A stretch of 64,000 nucleotides of DNA from Methylocaldum szegediense. GTDB taxonomy: Bacteria; Pseudomonadota; Gammaproteobacteria; Methylococcales; Methylococcaceae. The notes below the pieces were generated by a model. That model ran no database searches. It had not been told where the DNA came from and saw only the letters and a program-made list of their open reading frames with translations. The stretch spans positions 2,480,001-2,544,000 of the forward strand of contig NZ_OX458333.1 of the NCBI RefSeq assembly GCF_949769195.1. Reading direction: 5' to 3'. A program made the translations under genes and the position numbers. Of the stretch, positions 6,794 through 63,991 are shown piece by piece. Within the stretch, counting starts at the first letter, position 1; each line of letters starts with the position of its first letter.

Positions 6794-8137
6794 CTAGCCC
6801 TCCCCCAGAGGCAGAGCGGATTTCCTGACTACCCACGTCTCCTCCTTCCGAACCGCACCGATCTTCCGCCACGGCCTCGCCAATAACGCCATGACCAGCG
6901 CTTCGACTCCGAAATAGACCGGCGCCGCCACGGCCGCACCGGTCAGACCGTATGCCCGGATCATCAAGGGTGTGGCGACGGCGGCGGTTATCGCCCCGAG
7001 CAGGCGCCCGACCAGAAGGGGGCGGGTCCGCTTCACCGCCAACAGCGGCTGCCCTGCCACCATGCCCAAGGCCTGCAGCGCGCAGCCGGCCCCGATGATG
7101 GGCATGAGGACGGCTGCCGATTGATAGGTTTCCGCCAATAACAAGGCGGCGACCCAGTCTTTCAGCACAAACAAGGCCGCAACACCCCCTATCCCCATGG
7201 CGGCCACACAGCCCAGCCAAATCCAATAGATCTTGAACGCCTGTTCTTTTTCGCCGGCCGAAACGTGTTGGAAATAAACCGGCTGGAAGGTGCGCAACAG
7301 CACAATGGCGCTACGGTTGAACGCTTCATTAGTCAAGGTGTAAGCGGCGGCGTAAACGCCCACATCCGCCGCGCTCATGAGGTAGCCGACGATATACCGG
7401 GCGCCCAGCCCGCTGAACCAGGACAGCAGCTCCATCGGAATCAACGGCAGCGCATAAACCCTGAGATCCCGTTCAAGCTGCTTAAGGGTTACTGCGCGAG
7501 GCCGTACCTTTCTGCTCCGCTCCCGGTCATGCACAAACGACCAGACCGTATTCGCGGCAACGCTAGCCAAGACATATCCCAGCAACACCCAGGCGGCGTC
7601 CGGCCCCCACAGCCACACCAGCAGAATGGCGAACAGTGGCCGCAAAATGCTGTCGCTGGCCTGCCACAGACTGGCATCGCGCTGCCGACGCTCGCCGATC
7701 AGCAACTGAAACCCCATTTCCCGGCGGACGGTGACAAAAAAAAGTAGGGCAGCAATCGCGAACAACCATGGGTCAAACCCGGTCATTCGACTGTACGCCG
7801 CCCCTCCAAACGCCAGGAACGACATGGCAACGAAACTTGAACGCGCCGTCAGGCGGCGCACGCCCCGATACAAGGCGGTCCGCTCTCCGGCGTTCAAGCA
7901 CTCCGGCAGCAGACGCATGCCCGCACAAACGAACGGATAGGCGAAGATGCCAACGCCGAGCGCCACGATACCGGTCAACAAGGCGACCTGCCCGTAAACC
8001 GCCGGCGAAACCATTTCGGTAATGATCCGAGTACCCAGCAACAGCACGAGGCCGGACCCTACCTGGCCGAACAATGCCCAGGAGGCGTCTCCGAAGATGC
8101 GCCGCCCACCCGCGGCGTTAACGGATCGGTTCGCCAT
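6794..8137 (-). CDS. Polysaccharide flippase, MOP/Wzx-like membrane protein
   Basis: The protein has about 447 residues, nearly all hydrophobic, with roughly a dozen predicted transmembrane segments and the N-terminal pattern GDASWALFGQVGSGLVLLLG typical of the polysaccharide-exporter family. It should flip undecaprenyl-linked repeat units from the inner to the outer face of the cytoplasmic membrane. The ATG at 8137 and a GTG at 8143 are both possible; either overlaps the end of the upstream polymerase-like gene, which supports translational coupling. The C-terminus is cytoplasmic and basic. The family is assigned from topology and position, since these proteins have few diagnostic residues. 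Confidence 0.82.
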   Translation of the reverse strand: MANRSVNAAGGRRIFGDASWALFGQVGSGLVLLLGTRIITEMVSPAVYGQVALLTGIVALGVGIFAYPFVCAGMRLLPECLNAGERTALYRGVRRLTARSSFVAMSFLAFGGAAYSRMTGFDPWLFAIAALLFFVTVRREMGFQLLIGERRQRDASLWQASDSILRPLFAILLVWLWGPDAAWVLLGYVLASVAANTVWSFVHDRERSRKVRPRAVTLKQLERDLRVYALPLIPMELLSWFSGLGARYIVGYLMSAADVGVYAAAYTLTNEAFNRSAIVLLRTFQPVYFQHVSAGEKEQAFKIYWIWLGCVAAMGIGGVAALFVLKDWVAALLLAETYQSAAVLMPIIGAGCALQALGMVAGQPLLAVKRTRPLLVGRLLGAITAAVATPLMIRAYGLTGAAVAAPVYFGVEALVMALLARPWRKIGAVRKEETWVVRKSALPLGEG

Positions 8138-59889: not shown

Positions 59890-59919
59890 TTGACATTGCT
59901 TGTAAGCCGAGCGTACAGT
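59890..59919 (+). promoter_or_regulatory. Sigma-70-type promoter of pmoC copy 1
   Basis: TTGACA (59890-59895), 18 bp, TACAGT (59914-59919). The -35 context TTGACATTGC is identical upstream of copy 2, also with an 18-bp spacer. Predicted start of transcription near 59926. Confidence 0.7.
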
Positions 59920-59925
59920 ATTGAT

Positions 59926-59986
59926 CCGATACGATAGGTCGCGGCTAGGCATTCTTTAGCCTTGGCCGCGTGCCGAAACGTATCGG
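59926..59986 (+). promoter_or_regulatory. Predicted 5'-terminal hairpin of the pmoC-1 leader
   Basis: CCGATACG (59926-59933) pairs with CGTATCGG (59979-59986). Inside, CGCGGC (59940-59945) pairs with GCCGCG (59965-59970), and AGGC with GCCT. The structure begins at the expected transcription start. Confidence 0.6.
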
Positions 59987-60048
59987 TGCTACTCGGGAAT
60001 TAGAGTTTCGAAAAGCTTCTCGCAATCTAAACGCAGAAGCCGCACATC

Positions 60049-60079
60049 AAAAAATTCTTCCCAACGGACGGAATTTTTT
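60049..60079 (+). promoter_or_regulatory. Second hairpin in the pmoC-1 leader
   Basis: AAAAAATTC (60049-60057) and GAATTTTTT (60071-60079) form a perfect 9-bp stem, 11 bases before the AACTCTAACC box. Copy 2 has a hairpin at the same place. Confidence 0.5.
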
Positions 60080-60170
60080 CGTGCAACGTAACTCTAACCT
60101 GGGGTCAGGTACGTCAACTACGTACTCTGACTTAAGCTGTAATTAATAACCCAAACATTGGAGGTAAAAC

Positions 60171-60938
60171 ATGGCTGCTACAACAGCTGGTGGTATTGAA
60201 GCAAGAGAAGAACCCTTATTGAATGTAAAGTGGCTGACCTTTGCATTCCTGCTGTACCTGGTCTTCTATCTGTGGGTACGGTGGTATGAAGGGGTTTATG
60301 GCTGGTCTGCCGGTCTGGACTCGTTCGCACCGGAATTCGAGACGTACTGGATGAACTTCCTGTACACGGAGATCGTGTTGGAAGTCATCACCGCCTCGAT
60401 TCTGTGGGGTTGGATGTGGAAAACCCGTGACCGCAACATGGCGGCGCTGACTCCGCGAGAAGAACTGCGTCGGAACATGACGCACCTGATTTGGCTGTTT
60501 GCGTATGCATGGGCCATTTACTGGGGTGCGAGCTACTTCACCGAGCAGGACGGCACCTGGCACCAGACGATCGTGCGCGACACCGACTTCACGCCGTCGC
60601 ACATCATTGAGTTCTACCTGAGCTACCCGATCTACATCATCACGGGTGGTGCTGCGTTCCTGTATGCCCACACCCGCCTGCCGTACTTCCAGACGACCAC
60701 CAAAGGTCTGTCTCTGGCGTACCTGATCTTGTGGACGGGTCCGTTCATGATTCTGCCGAACGTCGGCCTGAACGAGTGGGGTCACACCTTCTGGTTTATG
60801 GAAGAGTTGTTCGTAGCGCCCTTGCACTACGGCTTCGTGATCTTCGGCTGGTTGGCTTTGGCGATCATGGGCGTGCTGCTGCAGGTCTTTGCTAGCGTCT
60901 CGAACCTGATCGGCAAAGATCTCTGCCCCGATCTGTAA
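60171..60938 (+). CDS. pmoC: PmoC, particulate methane monooxygenase subunit C (copy 1, solitary)
   Basis: A 255-residue membrane protein with about six helices. Copper ligands corresponding to the Asp, His, His of known PmoC are Asp127, His131 and His144 (DGTWHQTIVRDTDFTPSH). The N-terminus is short and soluble, as usual. The enzyme converts methane to methanol in the intracytoplasmic membrane. TTGGAGG precedes the ATG. No pmoA follows: a strong terminator comes 54 bp after the stop, so this is a solitary pmoC. Such extra pmoC genes are needed for growth in some methanotrophs. It is about 91% identical to copy 2. Confidence 0.95.
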   Translation: MAATTAGGIEAREEPLLNVKWLTFAFLLYLVFYLWVRWYEGVYGWSAGLDSFAPEFETYWMNFLYTEIVLEVITASILWGWMWKTRDRNMAALTPREELRRNMTHLIWLFAYAWAIYWGASYFTEQDGTWHQTIVRDTDFTPSHIIEFYLSYPIYIITGGAAFLYAHTRLPYFQTTTKGLSLAYLILWTGPFMILPNVGLNEWGHTFWFMEELFVAPLHYGFVIFGWLALAIMGVLLQVFASVSNLIGKDLCPDL

Positions 60939-60991
60939 TCGCGAAACCTGACAGCGTCTTAGCTTAAGTTCTAAGCACTGTTGCGGTTACG

Positions 60992-61030
60992 GCCACTGTC
61001 TGGAGCGACTGCTCCGGGCAGTGGCTTTTT
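60992..61030 (+). terminator. Intrinsic terminator after pmoC copy 1
   Basis: GCCACTG and CAGTGGC, with inner GGAGC and GCTCC, give a stem of about 14 bp, followed by TTTTT. It shows that copy 1 is not followed by pmoA and pmoB in one transcript. Confidence 0.9.
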
Positions 61031-61423: not shown

Positions 61424-62930
61424 GACTCTAGTACGCCGTCCTCCGTCAAAAGTCGCGTAAAACTTTACGTAGCCTGATTCGAACCCCGGCCGTCGAGATC
61501 TGCCGGTTTGCTTTTTGCGCCGCTGGGTCCGAATGGCGACCTACCTGACTGGAACCGCACTCTCGCAGCCCCACGCCAAGAAGTCACGAGCCAAAGTCCT
61601 CGGCACAAATTCGGACCTTACCCAGTCAACTGTCGTCCTTCGGCATCTGGTGAATTTCTTGGCAAAATTCAGTAAGCCGCAGCTCTGCTGCGGAGAAGGT
61701 TTCTCCGTCACCAACACACTTCCCCGTACCGACTCTCCACCCGATTAGGTACCCCACGGGCTAAGTCCTTCCGCACCCAGCCACCGGCGGTCTGCCCCCC
61801 TCCCGAGCCAAGGGCTCAAAAGCCGCGAACACGCTCTCACGCCCGGTCCGGACATGAACGCTGGCGTAATACTCCATCCGACCGAGCGTCCCCAGCGGGA
61901 CCCAAAATCCGGCAATCCGTCAGGGACGGTCTCGCCGAACCAAACCACCGGCTACTCGGCCCGGTACGGCTGCAAATAAACCTCAAGGCTACCTTCACAA
62001 CCACCACCAACTTGGGCGCAGCTTTCCGAAGAAAATCACCCCTATCTTTGGACGACATCGTTGCGCTCTCGTGTAGCGCGTCGAGGTTCGCCGCCCCCTT
62101 ACAATGCGCTCCGAGTGCAACTTGACCTGGGTGAGGTGGCGACCGGACATAAAGGGCACGGCTGTTTTCGCGCCTCGACATACCAGCAGCGAGCGGGTAC
62201 AGCATGGGAGGACGCACACTGCCGGTTGTTCCATCTAATTTCCGCGCTGAAGCGAATCACGCTGCATAACATAACAACGTGCAGAGGCCAGACTTCATCA
62301 ATTAGGCGAGATCGCCGGACTTGTTTCCAGCGGACAGCAAGTTCTTCGACGAAACCGCCCTTGGCCGTTCTAAGGCGCCAAGCATCTCGCCACGCCCTCA
62401 CCCACATCTGCCTTCAGAGACCGCCTATCAGGCCATAGACCGACGGGCAGTCGTTCTGCCTTGCGCTCGCCAAAATCCGACAGGCACATGCCTGAAACCC
62501 CTCGCGTCGGCTCATCATGGTCGTTCGCCAACCGAATGCCCGAAAGAATGTACCTGAGACGAATCTCTCGCCGTTTGGCAGTAATCGGAATATCCATAGC
62601 CAGTGTTGCAGCGCCTTCGCCACCCTGCCGGATGTTGAGTTACGGTAGCACGGAAGACCCCGGTTGGATTCTGGTGCGGTCGTGCTCGTGGTGAGCGACG
62701 CCTTTGTGGACCGCCCAAGCTTCGGCGTGAAGATTGATACGGGCCAGCTGCAGAAACCCCCGGGATTTTAGGTTGACACCTCGCCAAATCTGTCCCTCGG
62801 CGACACAGAGCGCTTCCGTGTTGATCACACCCGCAATGTCTCCACCTCGCATCGTGGTTAAACCTTCGGCCTGATCCGATGGCCCTTTAAACCTGCTATC
62901 CGCCTAGTCGGTGAAATCGCGGACACAAGG
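61424..62930. other. Gene-poor interval between the pmoC copies
   Basis: About 1.5 kb in which only short overlapping frames occur, none with a recognisable domain, a signal peptide or a ribosome site. It may be decayed coding sequence or long untranslated DNA. I see no tRNA or rRNA. Confidence 0.5.
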
Positions 62931-62931
62931 C

Positions 62932-62961
62932 TTGACATTGCCGATAGACCAGGCCTAAAGT
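62932..62961 (+). promoter_or_regulatory. Sigma-70-type promoter of pmoC copy 2
   Basis: TTGACA (62932-62937), 18 bp, TAAAGT (62956-62961), with the same TTGACATTGC context as copy 1. Distance from -35 to ATG is 292 bp, against 281 bp for copy 1. Confidence 0.7.
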
Positions 62962-62965
62962 ATCA

Positions 62966-63029
62966 ACTCGATGTCGTATCGAGTCGCTACGATATCGACA
63001 CGATACCAACGTCTTAATGACGCGTATCG
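62966..63029 (+). promoter_or_regulatory. Predicted 5'-terminal hairpins of the pmoC-2 leader
   Basis: ACTCGAT-GTCGT-ATCGAGT (62966-62984) is a perfect 7-bp hairpin at the expected transcription start. CGATAC/GTATCG with inner CGTC/GACG (63001-63029) forms a second. The sequences differ from copy 1 but the arrangement is similar. Confidence 0.6.
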
Positions 63030-63097
63030 ATGCTGGCTCGGGATTTAGGGTTCTGAAAGGCTTCTCCGTAGGTTCGACGCGGAAGCTGCACCTTCGA

Positions 63098-63120
63098 GAT
63101 TCCCGCCAAAAAGCGGAATT
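63098..63120 (+). promoter_or_regulatory. Hairpin before AACTCTAACC in the pmoC-2 leader
   Basis: GATT-C-CCGC and GCGG-AATT pair around CAAAAA with one bulged base. The AACTCTAACC box follows at 63135-63144, as in copy 1. Confidence 0.5.
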
Positions 63121-63223
63121 CTTCAGTGCCAGTTAACTCTAACCCGAAGTTCGAAACGGTATGTGCGCAAGTACGTGCCGTTGAGTCTATTGGCTATCAA
63201 CAATATCCATTGGAGGTCAAACT

Positions 63224-63991
63224 ATGGCTGCTACAACAGCGACTGGTGTAGAAGCAAAAGAACAACCCTTGCTAAATGCCAAGTGGATGACTTTTGCATT
63301 CCTGTTCTACTTGCTGTTCTATTCCTGGGTACGGTGGTACGAAGGGAAGTTCGGCTGGTCTGCCGGTCTGGACTCGTTCGCACCGGAATTCGAGACGTAC
63401 TGGATGAACTTCCTGTACATCGAAATCGTGGTGGAAGTGATCGTCGCCTCGCTGCTCTGGGGTTGGATGTGGAAGAGCCGTGACCGCAACATGGCTGCCA
63501 TGACCCCGCGGGAAGAACTGCGTCGGAACATGACGCACCTGATTTGGCTGTCGGCATACGCTTGGGCCATTTACTGGGGTGCGAGCTTCTTCACCGAGCA
63601 GGACGGCACCTGGCACCAGACGATCGTGCGCGACACCGACTTCACGCCGTCGCACATCATTGAGTTCTACCTGAGCTACCCGGTCTACATCATCACGGGT
63701 GGTGCTGCGTTCCTGTATGCCCACACCCGCCTGCCGTACTTCCAGACGACCACCAAAGGTCTGTCTCTGGCGTACCTGATCTTGTGGACGGGTCCGTTCA
63801 TGATTCTGCCGAACGTCGGCCTGAACGAGTGGGGTCACACCTTCTGGTTTATGGAAGAGCTGTTCGTAGCGCCCTTGCACTACGGCTTCGTGGTCTTCGG
63901 CTGGCTGGCTTTGGCGATCATGGGCGTGTTGCTGCAGGTGATGGCAAGCGTCTCGAACCTGATCGGCAAAGAGCTCACCCAGGGGATGTAA
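63224..63991 (+). CDS. pmoC: PmoC, particulate methane monooxygenase subunit C (copy 2)
   Basis: The second 255-residue PmoC, with the same copper ligands Asp127, His131 and His144. It differs from copy 1 mostly in the first 125 residues and at the C-terminus (GKELTQGM instead of GKDLCPDL). TTGGAGG precedes the ATG. The window ends 9 bases after the stop, so whether pmoA and pmoB follow is not visible. Its promoter and leader resemble those of copy 1. It may be the head of a pmoCAB operon or another solitary copy. Confidence 0.95.
   Translation: MAATTATGVEAKEQPLLNAKWMTFAFLFYLLFYSWVRWYEGKFGWSAGLDSFAPEFETYWMNFLYIEIVVEVIVASLLWGWMWKSRDRNMAAMTPREELRRNMTHLIWLSAYAWAIYWGASFFTEQDGTWHQTIVRDTDFTPSHIIEFYLSYPVYIITGGAAFLYAHTRLPYFQTTTKGLSLAYLILWTGPFMILPNVGLNEWGHTFWFMEELFVAPLHYGFVVFGWLALAIMGVLLQVMASVSNLIGKELTQGM

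Follow-up and report, generated by a model that had tools for sequence, protein, structure and literature searches.

The two stand-alone pmoC genes of Methylocaldum szegediense in the window (the whole stretch of 64,000 nucleotides analysed here) are each preceded by a leader of about 250 nt, and the view that the structure of this leader is under selection is well supported. One RNA-and-promoter module seems, on sequence comparison, to tie stand-alone pmoC to a second, unlinked operon. The leader is probably a cis-acting structured 5′ mRNA leader that would stabilise or tune the two co-regulated mRNAs.

Downstream of pmoC-2 lie a radical-SAM gene, an unassigned reading frame and a gene for IMP dehydrogenase, with no pmoA or pmoB among them. 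The genome (chromosome 4.87 Mb, 4.90 Mb in total) contains two further pmoC copies, each followed by pmoA and pmoB, and one more distant pmoC copy. Two other genomes of the genus (G005 and G006) carry one pmoC each with the leader, adjoining a radical-SAM gene. Stand-alone pmoC genes occur in several methanotrophs; those of Methylocaldum have been termed ‘type 2’, and the available portion of that account gives their function as unknown (PMC10974252). As far as the available portions go, M. szegediense is described as having two adjoining ‘type 2’ copies near radical-SAM and IMP dehydrogenase genes, and the window genes fit this description in both respects (PMC10974252, PMC11931723). Those portions cover the coding genes and their neighbourhood; the leader, its fold and the second operon are absent from them (PMC10974252, PMC11931723). 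The coding sequences of pmoC-1 and pmoC-2 are 91% identical overall (98–100% at approximately codons 121–220 and 80–92% elsewhere), with 22 synonymous and 27 non-synonymous codon differences. The leaders are 62% identical, a contrast that suggests gene conversion limited to the coding sequence.

Both promoters have the same −35 context, TTGACATTGC, at 59890 and at 62932, and the same 18-bp spacer, to TACAGT in pmoC-1 and to TAAAGT in pmoC-2. Transcription is predicted to start at about 59926 and 62968, respectively. The distance from −35 to ATG is similar (281 nt in pmoC-1, 292 nt in pmoC-2). An earlier note on this DNA had reported these likenesses, together with a hairpin at the start of the RNA and a later one upstream of the gene, and its coordinates agree with ours. 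The first 8 nt have a mean pairing of 0.99 in pmoC-1 and 0.97 in pmoC-2, compared with 0.48 and 0.41 in 20 base-shuffled copies of each, and the later hairpin is present before AACTCTAACC (60090 in pmoC-1, 63135 in pmoC-2). The note had also described the stems as built from different bases. This is correct for the 5′ stem, the inner part of P4 and the P5 hairpin; P2 (TTAGAGTT or TTAGGGTT with AACTCTAA) and P3 (GCTTCT with AGAAGC or GGAAGC) have nearly the same sequence in both leaders. To regard the leaders as wholly different in bases is therefore an overstatement, as they are 62% identical against a shuffled baseline with a mean of 46% and a maximum of 51% (60 comparisons of one pair, pmoC-1 with G006_S).

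Table 1. Positions of the genes, promoters and predicted RNA elements in the window.
Feature	Position	Strand	Details
pmoC-1 promoter	59890–59919	+	TTGACA, 18-bp spacer, TACAGT
pmoC-1 P1	59926–59986	+	CCGATACG (59926–59933) with CGTATCGG (59979–59986); inner arms GGTCGCGGC / GCCGCGTGCC
pmoC-1 junction	59992–60103	+	P2 CTCGGGAATTAGAGTT / AACTCTAACCTGGG (60090–60103) encloses P3 and P4; ACUCU upstream pairing 1.0
pmoC-1 P5 hairpin	60103–60132	+	GTCAGGTACGT...ACGTACTCTGAC
pmoC-1	60171–60938	+	stand-alone pmoC, 255 aa, Pfam AmoC
Terminator-like hairpin, 3′ of pmoC-1	60991–61026		
pmoC-2 promoter	62932–62961	+	TTGACA (62932–62937), 18-bp spacer, TAAAGT (62956–62961)
pmoC-2 5′-terminal stem	62968–62998	+	TCGATGTCGTA / TACGATATCGA; rebuilt as compared to pmoC-1
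pmoC-2 second stem	63001–63029	+	CGATAC...GTATCG; P1 3′ arm GTATCG with a displaced 5′ arm
pmoC-2 junction	63038–63147	+	P2 63038–63052 with 63135–63147, TCGGGATTTAGGGTT / AACTCTAACCCGA; ACUCU upstream pairing 0.99
pmoC-2 P3 hairpin	63058–63088	+	GGCTTCTCCG...CGCGGAAGCT; largely conserved across nine leaders
pmoC-2 P4 hairpin	63088–63129	+	GCAC...GTGC, inner CCCGC/GCGG
pmoC-2 P5 hairpin	63155–63182	+	AACGGTATGTGC-GCAA-GTACGTGCCGTT; same place as pmoC-1 P5, other bases
pmoC-2 ribosome-binding sequence	63212–63217	+	GGAGGT
pmoC-2	63224–63991	+	stand-alone pmoC, 255 aa, Pfam AmoC (1.9e-121)

Compared with dinucleotide shuffles, the pmoC-1 leader folds with a z of −7.9 and the pmoC-2 leader with a z of −4.1, none of 200 shuffles being as good in either case (−7.4 and −4.5 in a repeat run). 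The nine 250-nt stretches located 5′ of the promoters have z above −1.6 in eight cases and −2.9 in one. P2 links both ends of the leader core and so forms a junction, a feature absent from the earlier note. The partners of nucleotides 1–8 in the 5′ stem are nucleotides 24–31 in pmoC-2 and nucleotides 54–61 in pmoC-1. The partner of the second pmoC-2 stem is ambiguous; the match to the covariance model R2 starts at 62984 and uses another 5′ arm. Folded singly, five other leaders of this kind are little better than their shuffles (z −1.8 for the G005C pmoC leader and −1.1 to −3.1 for the four second-operon leaders). For comparison, z was −0.8 to −5.2 in six ordinary pmoCAB-type leaders and −1.4 to −3.0 in the initial part of the pmoC coding sequence (five genes).

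The five pmoC leaders from four genomes (alignment A1), in which the G007 copy is counted as a putative stand-alone gene since its pmoC runs off the contig end, share one consensus fold. P1 (CCGATACG/CGTATCGG) is located at the predicted 5′ end. The long-range P2 (TTAGRGTT/AACTCTAA), extended by CYCGGG and its partner, encloses P3 (GGCTTCTCCG/CGCAGAAGCC) and P4 (GCAC...GTGC, its inner stem A/U-rich), and P5 is a hairpin 5′ of the ribosome site. The consensus energy is −40.5 kcal/mol, as compared to means of −24.1 for a tree null, in which the same substitutions are re-placed on the same tree, and −19.9 for a column shuffle. None of the 200 nulls of either kind reached the observed value (z −3.8 and −5.9), and the same holds for the second-operon leaders (−3.3 and −5.2, 0/200 each) and for all nine leaders together (−3.2 and −4.7, 0/200 each). 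The RNAalifold structures used for the pair counts came from the same sequences; the energy test re-predicts the structure for every null, which removes this circularity.

Standard pairs fill 90% of the pair cells of A1, falling to 31–44% when the partners are slid; these counts and the energies were obtained on structure-blind alignments, with P1 of pmoC-2 misaligned in both A1 and A4. Under the tree null, pairing has a mean of 67% and a maximum of 77% (0/500 reach the observed 90%). Changes on both sides were seen in 9 of 61 pairs against 4.5 in shuffles (7/500 reach this). On the tree null, 8 double changes compare with 3.4 (12/500) and 3.6 compensated branches with 1.7 (42/500). When the helices are taken one at a time, an excess of double changes is confined to P1 and its inner stem (3 as compared to 0.6, 9/500); P2, P3, P4 and P5 keep their pairing with no excess of compensatory change on this null. 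In P1, column pair 1–70 is CG in three leaders, UA in three, UG in two and CA in one, and pair 5–66 is UA in eight and CG in one. In G005_S, the change of one P1 arm to CGACAC is matched by GTGTCG in the opposite arm. Since the consensus energy lies below all 200 nulls of both kinds and double changes exceed those in shuffles, selection on the structure is well supported, in agreement with the proposal in the earlier note that structure kept while sequence changes points to a selected RNA; that note had taken an absence of covarying pairs, or equal pairing in shuffled sequence, as evidence to the contrary, and neither was observed. Covariation alone is only moderate evidence, because just five to nine sequences exist.

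Across the nine leaders the first 8 nt have a mean pairing of 0.67–1.00, as compared to base-shuffled means of 0.35–0.55, and a 5′ stem is predicted in all nine relative to the predicted start. The first one or two nucleotides are unpaired in G005C and G006_S; in own_S, P1 is clear only in an 85-nt fold, nucleotides 3–7 preferring another partner at full length.

The nine copies of the module comprise five on pmoC and four on the second operon, the two being unlinked. The second operon, located near 2214405 of G000:C1 in the window's genome and carrying the same leader, encodes two proteins: one of 59 aa, a membrane protein with a single hydrophobic stretch, and one of 127 aa, rich in cysteine and with an N-terminus resembling a signal sequence (hydrophobicity and signal both judged by eye). 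Neither protein has a significant match in Pfam, NCBIfam or the solved structures. In the family, 28 of 38 genomes have relatives of the 59-aa protein (a weaker paralogue is included in this number); in a class-wide sample they were found in 3 of 369 genomes, each of which belongs to the window's order. A short paralogue of this protein, flanked by unrelated genes at 7078–7232 of L169, is also present in many other members of the family. The promoter, P1, the 5′ strand of P2 and the P3 region are common to the pmoC and second-operon leaders in all four genomes, the similarity beginning about 20 bp upstream of −35. All four second-operon leaders are without the full P2 and one C–G pair of P3 (columns 104/129, alignment A4). 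Identity is 59–78% among the five pmoC leaders, 70–83% among the four second-operon leaders and 49–60% between the types.

A covariance model built from the pmoC leaders only (R1) scores these five at 114–128 bits. The earlier note had proposed such a model for the leaders of many methanotrophs; among 311 genomes of the order (Methylococcales), strong matches to R1 are confined to four genomes of this one genus. Its weak matches at 24 and 19.4 bits are two of the four second-operon leaders; the remaining two were located through the neighbouring genes. Even a laxer search of the family with R1 missed own_S and G007_S. A match in G252 scored above two real relatives (26.2 bits) and was set aside as chance: an inverted repeat accounts for most of the match, and the genes on either side are unrelated. 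Model R2, built from all nine leaders, scores them at 71–130 bits, the next match in the 311 genomes being one of 24 bits in G190; some matches in the family scored 14–20 bits. Neither model found further credible members in these genomes under the stricter Infernal filters; more distant relatives may exist in other genera, since such filters lose weak matches. The pattern TTGACA-N18-TAMAGTAT-N5-CGA, with one mismatch allowed, occurs at exactly nine sites in the four genomes and its reversed control at none; as the pattern was drawn from these nine sites, the new information is the absence of others. One Methylocaldum-type leader is carried by L125 (DYIL01000106.1), a metagenome-assembled genome whose label, Methyloversatilis universalis, is probably wrong. 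In other genera, several of the stretches 5′ of pmoC (L066, L069, L059, L079, L078 and L113) contain hairpin-like A-run/U-run elements that include GGAATTTTTT or a close variant of it; in some, GGTCAG follows. They resemble P4 of Methylocaldum and, judged by this likeness, may be a wider, diverged relative of the leader.

The conserved block could instead be mainly a DNA control region. A regulator would then bind the dyad GTATTG-N3-CGATAC over −10/+1 along with elements that begin about 20 bp upstream of −35, and the fold of the RNA would come second. Seven of the nine promoters have an intact dyad (four pmoC cases by pattern match), and the conservation between the operons does begin at that upstream position. 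Two other genera have a different dyad in this position at their second operon (AGTTTCG-N3-CGAAACT in G010, a form with one mismatch in G017). Several observations speak against a pure DNA operator: the dyad is broken in G005_S (CGACAC) with P1 restored by GTGTCG, it is also broken in pmoC-2 where a 5′ stem remains, and the folding signal reaches far beyond the promoter. The rebuilt stem of pmoC-2 and the matched change in G005_S, both with a broken dyad, favour selection on the 5′-terminal RNA stem. We consider it unlikely that DNA control is the main explanation; a DNA regulator at the −10/+1 dyad, alone or in addition, is possible. At the second operon of the two other genera, the 17-bp dyad AGTTTCG-N3-CGAAACT across −10/+1 near 1120–1139 of L136 and near 1092–1110 of L135 (one mismatch) is a candidate regulator site.

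A consensus scan of the window flagged no intrinsic terminator between promoter and start codon in its two leaders (59926–60170 and 62968–63223, + strand), and a transcription attenuator was rejected on this ground. P4 has a U-run in some leaders, with only an A/U-rich stem. In a translational switch controlled by a ligand or protein, ACTCTAA would pair either with TTAGRGTT, which forms P2 and frees the ribosome site, or with that site itself, and a local CCC/GGGT hairpin at the 5′ strand of P2 would act as a competitor. ACTCT is the common partner sequence and pairs with the ribosome site at 0.98 in G005_S and 0.95 in G006_S, two of the four second-operon leaders (37 °C), but at only 0.00–0.02 in own_S and G007_S (37 °C). 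The alternative hairpin (columns 74–94) is 88% paired in the nine leaders, as compared to a null mean of 77% (36/500 reach this), but its double changes do not significantly exceed those of the null (92/500). For the pmoC leaders, all five show ACTCT paired upstream at 0.96–1.00 (37–55 °C), with a probability of 0.00 for the ribosome site. When the upstream partners are made unavailable, the cost is 2.9–9.3 kcal/mol, and in some leaders ACTCT is left unpaired. Constrained folding thus gave no mutually exclusive ribosome-site structures in the five pmoC leaders, hiding of the site being predicted in two of the four second-operon leaders. With no terminator flagged and no consistent sequestration of the ribosome site found, a riboswitch is not supported, and we regard a translational switch as improbable. 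Equally doubtful is a new sensory RNA, so far found in Methylocaldum only, that would sense a cue of methane oxidation (e.g., copper, methanol or redox state) and set the expression of stand-alone pmoC together with that of the cysteine-rich protein and of the small membrane protein, which has been found only in the methanotroph order. Shared ancestry only, with a fold lacking function in young duplicates of one genus, would fit the homology of the sequences in all three identity classes and the four carrier genomes, but is very improbable given substitutions placed so as to keep pairing well above the tree-null maximum, a consensus energy below every null and the retention of the plan in pmoC-2 at its present divergence from pmoC-1.

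Stabilisation or tuning of the mRNA appears the likeliest role of the leader, because of the evidence for the 5′ stem, the lack of a flagged terminator and the upstream pairing of the 3′ strand of P2 (ACTCT, 0.99–1.00 in all five pmoC leaders, 37 °C). Each copy would be transcribed from a sigma-70-type promoter with an 18-bp spacer and would present P1 at its predicted 5′ end; in the pmoC form, P1 would be followed by the TTAGRGTT/AACTCTAA junction with its two hairpins and then by the hairpin before the ribosome site. The 5′-terminal stem and the compact junction may protect the mRNA from decay that depends on the 5′ end, and the ribosome site would be kept outside the folded leader, as in the ompA leader. 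The ribosome site of the pmoC leaders is unpaired at 0.22–0.42 (37 °C) and pairs, in the folds examined, mostly with early coding sequence rather than with the leader core; being partly paired, it is not plainly open. From the common promoter, both operons would be expressed together, and this could in turn be adjusted by a small RNA or a bound protein. The apparent coupling of stand-alone pmoC to one other operon offers a concrete, testable partner, the 59-aa protein and its cysteine-rich neighbour, and the leader is a defined RNA whose mutants can be assayed. The sensory RNA, if true, would be a first clue to the reason for having stand-alone pmoC genes at all.

In ompA-type leaders, a 5′-terminal stem-loop stabilises the mRNA. 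The Methylocaldum leader resembles these in having a stem at the extreme 5′ end, in preceding a membrane-protein gene and in keeping its structure while bases change. It differs in having, 3′ of this stem, a long-range junction plus two to three further hairpins, in that the module is common to two unlinked operons and in that stabilisation is here a prediction. With translational riboswitches it shares a junction-containing leader on a metabolic gene and a strand able, in principle, to reach the ribosome site; unlike them, it shows neither a consistent expression platform nor a match to a known aptamer. Permissive searches with Rfam 15 (4227 models), covering the leaders other than the G006 pmoC leader on L044, gave no match in them. 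The only matches, both below threshold, were to a snoRNA model at 61929–61978 and to HgcC at 486–566 of L040 (32 bits as compared to a gathering score of 50). No description of the leader was found in literature on the regulation of pmoC or pMMO or on Methylocaldum, as represented by titles and the openings of abstracts (a few of subscription papers).

A further comparison is with the leaders of ordinary pmoCAB operons, drawn from a survey of 80 stretches upstream of pmoC matches at 79 loci of 38 family genomes; several stretches start at internal or partial pmoC matches and so are no true leaders, though they are still counted, and partial matches without a gene start were left out. The pmoCAB leaders likewise have a TTGACA promoter and a structured leader, and many also start with a small 5′ hairpin. 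In 17 of 28 pmoCAB-type leaders (e.g., L037, L038, L041, L042, L057, L058, L064, L065, L067 and L068), two unpaired bases precede such a hairpin, of which CACCCCGGGAGTGGGG is an example; its bases vary. The pmoCAB spacer is mostly 16 bp with TAGACT at −10 (29 of the 80 stretches), as compared to 18 bp and TAMAGT in Methylocaldum, and the pmoCAB-type leaders are 119–148 nt long (n = 28), as compared to about 250 nt. The window leaders thus fall outside this class (TTGACA-N16-TAGACT, leader of approximately 120–150 nt), for which pmoA and pmoB were confirmed downstream of both short-leader copies in the window's own genome. ACTCTAA occurs in 5 of the 80 stretches, which are the five long leaders. 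The Methylocaldum leader is new within the broad class of structured 5′ leaders, rather than a new kind of system.
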